Positions 49,640 to 51,796 of a DNA stretch of 64,000 bases are shown here, piece by piece. Source of the stretch: Mariniblastus sp. (GTDB lineage Bacteria > Planctomycetota > Planctomycetia > Pirellulales > Pirellulaceae); the NCBI GenBank assembly GCA_022447555.1, contig JAKVBF010000001.1:149560-213559 (forward strand). Reading direction: 5' to 3'. Under the pieces are notes generated by a model that worked only from the letters and a program-made list of their open reading frames with translations, searched no databases and was not told where the DNA came from. How positions within the stretch are numbered: position 1 is the stretch's first letter; every line of letters begins with the position of its first letter. Made by a program: the position numbers and the translations under genes.

Positions 49640-50509
49640 ATGCGAGTCGTATTTCCCAGTAGCTTGGACCAGGCTTTGAATCGTCTTATATTTTCTATCA
49701 ACTCGGGCAGAGCGGGTTCCAAATACCTAAGTACTTTATTGGGCACGGCCAAAGAGGTTCATAGTTTCCACGAACCGGCTCCCGATATGGCAGGGCGATA
49801 CGTCAAATACCTCCCCGTCAAAAGGCACACACTTAAAACGCTTTTAGTCTCTTTGCCCGTTGCTCGCAAGAAACTTCGCAAAGTGGAAACGATTAAAAAA
49901 AAGCTTGAGGTTATGGAGCCTGGCGAGATCTATGCGGAGACCAATTTCCAGTACATCTTGTCTTTCTATGACGCGATCGAATCTCACTTTCACGACCAAT
50001 ATCATGTCGTATTAATGCGTCGACATTTACCTAAAGTTCTCAAGAGCTGGATGGAATTAGGGTGGTTCCGCGCGGGCCATCGCCCCACCCGTTACTGGTG
50101 CTATTCGGCCGTCGCTCCCAGCCGTGCAGTCCCCCCGGTAGCATCGATGCGAGAATTGGACAGTTTCGATCAGTGCATCGCTTATTTAATTGATATCGAA
50201 GGTCGTGCCCAAAGGTTTTTAAAAGATTTTCCTAACGTTCCCGTCACACAAGTCCGCTTGGAATCACTCTCTTCGCCGGAGCTCGTCCGTCGCCTTTTTA
50301 ATCAGCTAGGCATTACCCCAACTAAAGAGACCTTTAAAAAAGCAGGAGAAGTGATCTGGGCAAGGACCAAGCAAAAAAAGAAGGTAGGCCGCCCGGTAAC
50401 GGAAGATTATTGTCGTCAGCGAATCCACCAATATTTTGAACGGTGCCAACGTCTCGGGATCGAGGTGCCTCACCTTTCGCAAATGGACCCGTTCGATCCT
50501 CGGGAATGA
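49640..50509 (+). CDS. Sulfotransferase-like P-loop protein
   Basis: 289 residues, no signal peptide. The N-terminal INSGRAGSKYLSTLLG fits the 5'-phosphosulfate-binding loop of PAPS-dependent sulfotransferases (S-G-R-x-G-S/T), followed by HSFHEPAP. The middle YAETNFQYILSFYDAIESHF and the later FPNVPVTQVRLESLSSPELVRRLFNQLGI match the rest of the fold (the PAPS 3'-binding and cap region). The C-terminal helix carries multiple Lys. Acceptor unknown; a nearby sulfatase suggests sulfated glycans but that is inference. Confidence 0.72.
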   Translation: MRVVFPSSLDQALNRLIFSINSGRAGSKYLSTLLGTAKEVHSFHEPAPDMAGRYVKYLPVKRHTLKTLLVSLPVARKKLRKVETIKKKLEVMEPGEIYAETNFQYILSFYDAIESHFHDQYHVVLMRRHLPKVLKSWMELGWFRAGHRPTRYWCYSAVAPSRAVPPVASMRELDSFDQCIAYLIDIEGRAQRFLKDFPNVPVTQVRLESLSSPELVRRLFNQLGITPTKETFKKAGEVIWARTKQKKKVGRPVTEDYCRQRIHQYFERCQRLGIEVPHLSQMDPFDPRE

Positions 50510-50677: not shown

Positions 50678-51796
50678 ATGCAGTTCAAAATTTTATTGAC
50701 GTTGCTGACGAGTCTGTTAGTCTCTCAAGCCAGTCGCGCTCAAGACACTCGCTCCGCTGATGATCGCTATCAGGCTCTGGTGGCCGAGGTTGACGTCGCA
50801 AATGAACAGTGGAACGCGAGGGTGGCTGAGTTGCGAGCCGCTGAAAAAAGAGGGGGAGACCCGATACCGGCCGAGGCGTTTCAATCACCGTTGATTCCTT
50901 TTGTACCCCGGTTCGACGCGATCGCGCATGAATACGCCGGTACACCCGACGCGATTCCATTTTTGACATGGCTGGCTCAGAACGCGCTCCCCATGGTCGG
51001 GGCCGAGCGTAAAGCGGCCAAAGACGCGGTGCGAACATTAGTGACCACCCATCGGACCTCACCACGGTTAGAGGATTTAGAATGGATGGTGGGACGGCTC
51101 GATTATTTTTATGACGAACAACAAGCTATGAAGGTTGGATTACAGCTCGAGAAAGAGTCGCCCAGTCCAAAAGTCCGCGCCTACGCTACTTTTTCTCGAG
51201 TGAGTGCGACAATCAATAAAGCGCCGGTTGACTCCGAGACGTTTCGGTCAGCGAAGTCTGAGATTTTGACCGTACTCGACGGGATCGAAATTCCCGATCT
51301 GGCTTCAGCAGTGAAAACCAGAATCAAGATGCGTGAGAATTTTTCGTTGGGGATGACACCCCCTGACATTAAAGGACTCGATTTGGACGGGAAGTCGTTC
51401 GCACTTTCGGATTATAAAGGAAAGGTTCTATTCATTGATTTCTGGGGAGACTGGTGAGGTCCTTGCCGGTTGTTATACCCACACGAGCGGTCGCTCGTTA
51501 ATGAAATGCAAAATCGCCCCTTCGCTCTGATTGGCGTCAATTCCGACGACCTCGATCGCGCCCAAGCGGCCGTTCGAGAAAATAATATCAACTGGCGCAG
51601 TTTCCAGAACCAACCCGAAGGTCGTACAACCTCGATCTCCGATGACTGGCTCCTATACAGTTGGCCGACCATCGTTGTCCTCGATGCGGATTTCAAAGTC
51701 CGTTACCGGGGTAGCGATTGTGATGAAGCCACGGCAATAACGCGCAAGCTGGTCTCTCAGTTGGATGGAAAAACCACCGAAGCCGATGGCCAATAG
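50678..51796 (+). CDS. TlpA-like thioredoxin, candidate selenoprotein with UGPC active site
   Basis: A 372-residue exported thiol-disulfide protein if the in-frame TGA at 51455-51457 is read as selenocysteine. ATG at 50678 starts a signal peptide (KILLTLLTSLLVSQASRAQ), then an all-helical domain, then a TlpA/AhpC-type thioredoxin domain. The motif reads FWGDW-U-GPC-RLLYPHERSL: the TGA is at residue 260, exactly the first Cys of WCGPC, with Cys263 intact. After it the frame stays open for 112 codons with normal thioredoxin text (PFALIGVNSDD, the cis-Pro segment SWPTIVVLD). A gene caller would report 50678-51457 and 51470-51796 as separate genes. The alternative is a nonsense mutation; no Sec-machinery gene is in the window. 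Confidence 0.75.
51455..51498 (+). promoter_or_regulatory. Candidate bacterial SECIS element with its UGA
   Basis: The UGA codon is at 51455-51457. A 6-bp stem, ACGAGC (51483-51488) with GCTCGT (51493-51498), closes a four-base loop GGTC. The loop starts 32 bases after the UGA and has G at its first positions, which fits the general bacterial SECIS model (small apical loop with an early G about 16-37 bases from the UGA). It lies within the codons for ERSL. A chance hairpin cannot be excluded. Confidence 0.5.

Follow-up and report, generated by a model that had tools for sequence, protein, structure and literature searches.

Is an in-frame TGA at the active site of a thioredoxin-like gene a stop, an error, or a codon for selenocysteine (Sec)? 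The question is raised by a locus of Mariniblastus sp., a planctomycete of the family Pirellulaceae. The locus lies in a window of 64,000 nucleotides (assembly GCA_022447555.1, contig JAKVBF010000001.1, positions 149,560 to 213,559), and all coordinates below are forward-strand positions of this window. The gene, here called Sec-TlpA, spans 50678-51796 and carries the TGA at 51455-51457. Judged from its sequence, it in all likelihood codes for a selenoprotein that belongs with the TlpA/ResA-like thiol-disulfide oxidoreductases, with Sec inserted at the UGA, probably by way of a hairpin at 51483-51498.

Translation of 50678-51796 gives 373 symbols, with the TGA as the single internal stop and a terminal TAG (51794-51796), which bears out the initial annotation's description of a frame open but for this one codon. 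Read through, the protein has 372 residues, of which Sec is residue 260. The context is DFWGDW-TGA-GPC-RLLYPHERSLV. The UGA stands at the first, nucleophilic Cys position of a CxxC motif and the second Cys (51464-51466, residue 263) is kept, as had been claimed; all 67 distinct TGA homologues have this Cys. The redox pair of the protein is thus a UGPC motif, accompanied by the Pro of an SWPT segment (51665-51667), which we take to be the cis-Pro position and which is invariant in the window sequence and five orthologues. The 112 codons 3' of the TGA, previously described as normal thioredoxin sequence including SWPT, are open and homologous. The read-through protein scores above the cut-off of four Pfam thioredoxin-fold models: AhpC-TSA (PF00578, 52.9 bits, cut-off 26), Redoxin (PF08534, 47, cut-off 26.6), Thioredoxin_8 (PF13905, 37.8, cut-off 27), and Thioredoxin (PF00085, 30.9, cut-off 23.5). 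This TlpA/ResA-like domain occupies 51350-51718 (Pfam residues 225-347). Its sequence relatives in the PDB are 2lrn and ResA 4nmu, and its Foldseek relatives are 4grf and ResA 1su9. The open homologous codons, the Pfam matches, and the retention of TGA in five orthologues make the observation more than chance.

The five orthologues (L053-L057) come from other assemblies and are 75-77% identical to the window protein. Their source metagenome-assembled genomes are assigned to Mariniblastus (two), a genus within Pirellulales, and to Pirellulaceae, Planctomycetaceae, and Planctomycetota. The codon at the UGA column is TGA in all six sequences, and the orthologues end at their own TAG or TAA stops. 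The mean ratio of nonsynonymous to synonymous change (dN/dS, Nei-Gojobori) is 0.076 in the N-terminal part, 0.027 just 5' of the TGA, and 0.045 3' of it (pairs with finite dS: 10, 10, and 12 of 15, respectively), with a mean synonymous difference near 0.65 among the six sequences. Purifying selection 3' of the TGA is not the pattern of a dead gene.

These data bear on the simplest alternative, that the TGA is a nonsense mutation, a pseudogene lesion, or a sequencing error at a Cys codon. TGA is one base from TGC and TGT, and the window sequence comes from a single assembly. However, the same TGA followed by an intact protein in five other assemblies, the purifying selection after it in these independent orthologues, and the recovery of 67 distinct TGA sites make this explanation extremely improbable. 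A relative with a Cys codon and a decayed downstream region, which the initial annotation had named as contrary evidence, did not appear among the close relatives; they keep the TGA and an intact downstream frame instead.

More distant homologues show which residue the column carries. Among 109 homologous sites (loci L023 to L142 except L071, copies included; alignments not extending to the site column were left out of the count), 81 have TGA, 21 TGC, 7 TGT, and none any other codon. Some genes occur twice among the 81; without identical copies, there are at least 67 distinct TGA sites among the matches listed and 28 of 28 Cys sites. Sec forms are favoured in this count because the search query was mostly the Sec protein itself. 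A tree of 95 domains was built after masking of the Sec column and of the columns coded by the hairpin; 17 of its 90 inner branches are strongly supported. On it, 5 changes suffice for the Sec and Cys labels, versus a mean of 24 when the labels are shuffled. The expectation of Cys in the homologue column is therefore borne out: all 28 non-TGA codons are Cys.

The machinery for Sec insertion is encoded in the same assembly (4.19 Mb, 62 contigs, completeness 97.5%, contamination 2.28%), where selA, selB, selC, and selD, the genes proposed for a search, are all present. Scores are 569 bits for selA (cut-off 267.9), 357.9 bits for selB (cut-off 242.25, 643 aa), and 273.2 bits for selD (cut-off 125). 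One tRNA-Sec lies above its gathering score (68.6, cut-off 47) and is assigned the anticodon TCA by ARAGORN. The four genes are spread over four contigs. SelA is above cut-off in 22 of 28 genomes of the genus. The proposal of a Sec-containing TlpA homologue is supported by these genes together with the TGA-keeping orthologues and the Cys homologues. In the window genome, a protein of 733 aa (L017:1393-3594, contig C3) has selD as its C-terminal half and a match to pyridine nucleotide-disulphide oxidoreductases in its N-terminal half.

Bacteria in which UGA is reassigned to an ordinary amino acid exist, and this organism too might read UGA generally as Trp, Gly, or Cys. Yet TGA is still a normal stop here: of 33 long, non-overlapping mechanical open reading frames (ORFs) in the window, 14 end in TGA, and so does the selB ORF of the genome. 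The homologues carry Cys at the column, never Trp or Gly, and tRNA-Sec, selA, selB, and selD are all in the genome. A general reassignment is hardly credible against this evidence.

The signal for recoding would be the hairpin at 51483-51498, a candidate Sec insertion sequence (SECIS). It has a 6-bp stem (ACGAGC/GCUCGU) and a GGUC loop at 51489-51492, lies 31 nt from UGA to loop, has a folding energy of -7.9 kcal/mol, and is present in all three folds computed. The bacterial SECIS model in the legend to Fig. 2A of a 2026 review (PMC13188914) gives a stem of 4-16 bp, a loop of 3-9 nt with G in its first two positions, a UGA-loop spacing of 16-37 nt, and an energy of at most -7.5 kcal/mol. The window hairpin falls within all of these limits. 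The full model fits 55 of 67 TGA homologues but a single one of the 28 Cys homologues; of 5000 synonymously resampled versions of the window sequence, 81 fit it. The inner four base pairs form in 66 of the 67 TGA sequences versus 1 of the 28 Cys sequences; all six pairs form in 58 and 1, respectively.

Codon choice at the hairpin is nearly fixed. Codons +9 to +13 after the UGA are CAC GAG CGG TCG CTC. Among the 67 TGA homologues, these single synonyms make up 98, 100, 100, 100, and 97% of the sequences that have the consensus residue (59, 63, 64, 57, and 67 of 67), whereas their shares in the window ORFs are 46, 42, 19, 21, and 16%. All four synonyms are in use at +5 Ala and +14 Val. Inner pairs vary in six cases: four changes of A-U to G-U, one of G-C to G-U, and one break. 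Because they hardly vary, the support for a SECIS comes from frozen synonymous sites rather than from covariation. An idea that GTA at +14 avoids a longer stem was dropped because 17 of 21 sites from the phylum use GTG.

The frozen CACGAGCGGTCGCTC might instead be kept for the peptide HERSLV or for another role of the RNA. The peptide is also conserved, there is almost no covariation, and this hairpin is missing from both of the genome's deiodinase-like TGA genes, described below, where the best simple hairpins have energies of -5.0 and -3.8 kcal/mol and fall short of the published limit. A constraint on the peptide would not fix synonymous sites, however. The paired stem is missing in 27 of 28 Cys homologues, whose commonest peptide at this position is HEQELT rather than the HERSLV of Sec genes, and the position, loop, and stem of the hairpin agree with the model in the review's figure legend (PMC13188914). 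Retention for a purpose other than SECIS function is accordingly very improbable. The one Cys homologue with an intact hairpin, L134 (G026, contig C166), clusters with the Sec genes L115 and L060 (SH-aLRT, a branch support test, 83 and 86). It probably represents a recent Sec-to-Cys change that still carries the SECIS. SECIS remnants in Cys genes are already known (PMC1794560, Fig. 4 legend).

Several observations weigh against the selenoprotein interpretation and its hairpin. The energy limit is passed narrowly (-7.9 vs -7.5 kcal/mol), 12 of the 67 TGA homologues fall outside the full SECIS model, and folds of 49-72 nt around the site show no exceptional stability given their composition (z of -1.13, 0.12, and -0.91). 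The base pairs are nearly invariant, so covariation support is almost nil, and a weaker codon bias extends 5' of the hairpin, to +4 (CGG, 62%), +7, and +8 (CCA, 69%). The machinery models are not fully specific: among 14 known control genomes, selB and selD give matches in all 14 (above cut-off in 2), tRNA-Sec is above cut-off in 5, and selA gives matches in 4 (above cut-off in 1). Some assemblies have TGA genes and no selA match. They are G002, G003, G004, and G018 in the genus, where G021 and G023 have selA fragments only, and G209, G231, G270, G279, and G322 in the sample of the phylum (72-91% complete). The completeness of all such assemblies, genus and phylum together, is 71-92%.

The spread of the element was followed in 392 sampled genomes of Planctomycetota. 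The pattern TGA-N6-TGY-N18-GRGCRGNYGCTC occurs in 69 of them, at 113 sites versus 7 for a backward-read control. The exact form GAGCGGTCGCTC stands at 109 of the 113, although the pattern permits 32 forms. Leaving aside three chance-like genomes (G324, G279, and G228), the matching genomes fall into 22 family groups. Set against the bacterial SECIS consensus in the review's figure legend (PMC13188914), one 12-mer thus recurs in planctomycete genes across all these groups. In the 20 loci examined, all 21 sites (of the 113) lie in TlpA-like reading frames, with at least 242 open codons ahead of the TGA and at least 100 behind it. SelA (E <= 1e-60) is found in 64 of the 69 pattern genomes versus 242 of 392 overall, a co-occurrence with a Fisher p of 4e-10 when genomes are taken as independent. 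The counts of sites, control sites, exact forms, and family groups were made by hand, and the 64 of 69 is a comparison by hand. In the window genome, which has six Sec-TlpA genes, the exact 12-mer occurs six times versus 1 for the backward control. Five occurrences are in Sec-TlpA genes; the sixth lies within an ORF of 539 aa that has no in-frame TGA. One locus of the sample, L156, may encode a double-Sec fusion protein: its sites at 760 and 1798 belong to two Sec-TlpA domains separated by 346 codons, and the reading frame that they share has no TAA or TAG in the interval.

These data favour, with fair rather than strong confidence, the view that a phylum-wide Sec-TlpA family keeps one SECIS, near-constant in sequence and in its 31-nt spacing. 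The RNA would dictate the peptide HERSLV, which would be freed after a change from Sec to Cys.

Upstream of the thioredoxin domain, the protein begins with a likely export signal (50678-50743), judged by eye from a Lys, a hydrophobic run, and small residues before Q22. The approximately 200 residues between the N-terminus and the thioredoxin domain are helical in an AlphaFold model of modest confidence. This all-helical region (50756-51346) has a mean pLDDT, the model's per-residue confidence, of 63.8 and no Pfam match at E 0.01. Naming a fold for it was given up since the model is too weak.

The region invites another reading, in which the UGA is a selenium switch: a 259-residue helical protein would be made without selenium and the full oxidoreductase with it, both forms mattering. 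The N-terminal region is conserved (dN/dS 0.076) and appears as a separate unit in the modest model. Constraint is stronger on both flanks of the UGA, however (0.027 before, 0.045 after), and there is no sign of use for the short form. Such a switch is unlikely, though less so than the other alternatives.

For the selenoprotein interpretation, we infer Sec insertion, export, and the direction and substrate of the redox reaction as follows. Translation would begin at 50678. The hairpin, just beyond the UGA in the mRNA, would recruit SelB with Sec-tRNA(Sec), and Sec would be placed at the UGA with termination avoided. The finished protein is probably exported, and Sec260 and Cys263 would form a redox couple acting on disulfides outside the cytoplasm.

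Among known systems, the C-terminal domain has its best relatives, by named family and by structure, in the ResA/TlpA oxidoreductases, from which the window protein differs by having Sec in place of Cys. It scores 48.4 of 170 bits with the NCBIfam ResA model NF002854 and 43.8 of 230 bits with the rhizobial TlpA model NF047696, and therefore lies outside both named models. The model NF041054 (WAxxUGC_long) is likewise ResA-like with Sec in its name motif; the window protein has UGPC, not UGC, and scores 25.3 bits with this model (cut-off 300). It stays below the cut-off of every NCBIfam model. Table 1 of the 2026 review (PMC13188914) lists UxxC thioredoxin-fold selenoproteins of the cd02966, PF00578, and PF08534 families. 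Like them, the window protein combines a thioredoxin fold with Sec in the leading position of the CxxC motif. It exceeds the cut-offs of PF00578 and PF08534, and the likeness to cd02966 is one of description. Unlike the selenoproteins as listed there, the window gene has a long N-terminal helical region, a near-fixed hairpin at 31-nt spacing, and six copies in its genome. Since UxxC selenoproteins with the same domains are already in that table, the protein is not a new kind; the gene is a further member of the known UxxC TlpA-like selenoproteins. Planctomycete use of Sec has been reported for two genomes (PMC4807772). No report of this Sec-TlpA family or of a shared SECIS was found in titles and abstract openings, which cover the literature in part, and the string 'planctomyc' is absent from the main texts of PMC13188914, PMC9312934, PMC9402790, PMC12013277, and PMC5029168.

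No conserved gene neighbourhood emerged: a tblastn search of the five orthologue loci (flank up to 4 kb) gave no match to any of five neighbouring proteins. The ORF just 5' of Sec-TlpA (49640-50509), sulfotransferase-like by eye, likewise has no match in these loci. Promoter and terminator scans gave 2 and 2 sites versus shuffle means of 1.5 and 2.2. Elsewhere in the genome, L076 and L080 (contigs C4 and C3) are deiodinase-like genes (PF00837) whose TUPPF motif contains an in-frame TGA; one of them has EF-hands. Both are further selenoprotein candidates, and no strong simple SECIS hairpin was found in either. A deiodinase-EF-hand fusion has already been described (PMC9402790). These genes carry other, weaker simple hairpins, and the idea that the Sec-TlpA hairpin is a general requirement of the genome's SelB is unsupported.

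Standard annotation probably cuts Sec-TlpA genes at the UGA, given that no NCBIfam model reaches its cut-off and NF041054 falls far below its own. If the phylum-wide view is true, a recoding signal shapes protein sequence over a whole phylum. The hairpin and the hairpin-bearing Cys homologue offer a natural series on the constraint that a SECIS places on its own protein, and studies of SelB specificity gain in the hairpin a compact, clearly delimited element. That a single genome of 4.2 Mb carries six Sec-TlpA genes, with relatives across the phylum, suggests that the selenium-dependent disulfide chemistry of planctomycetes exceeds what annotation records.
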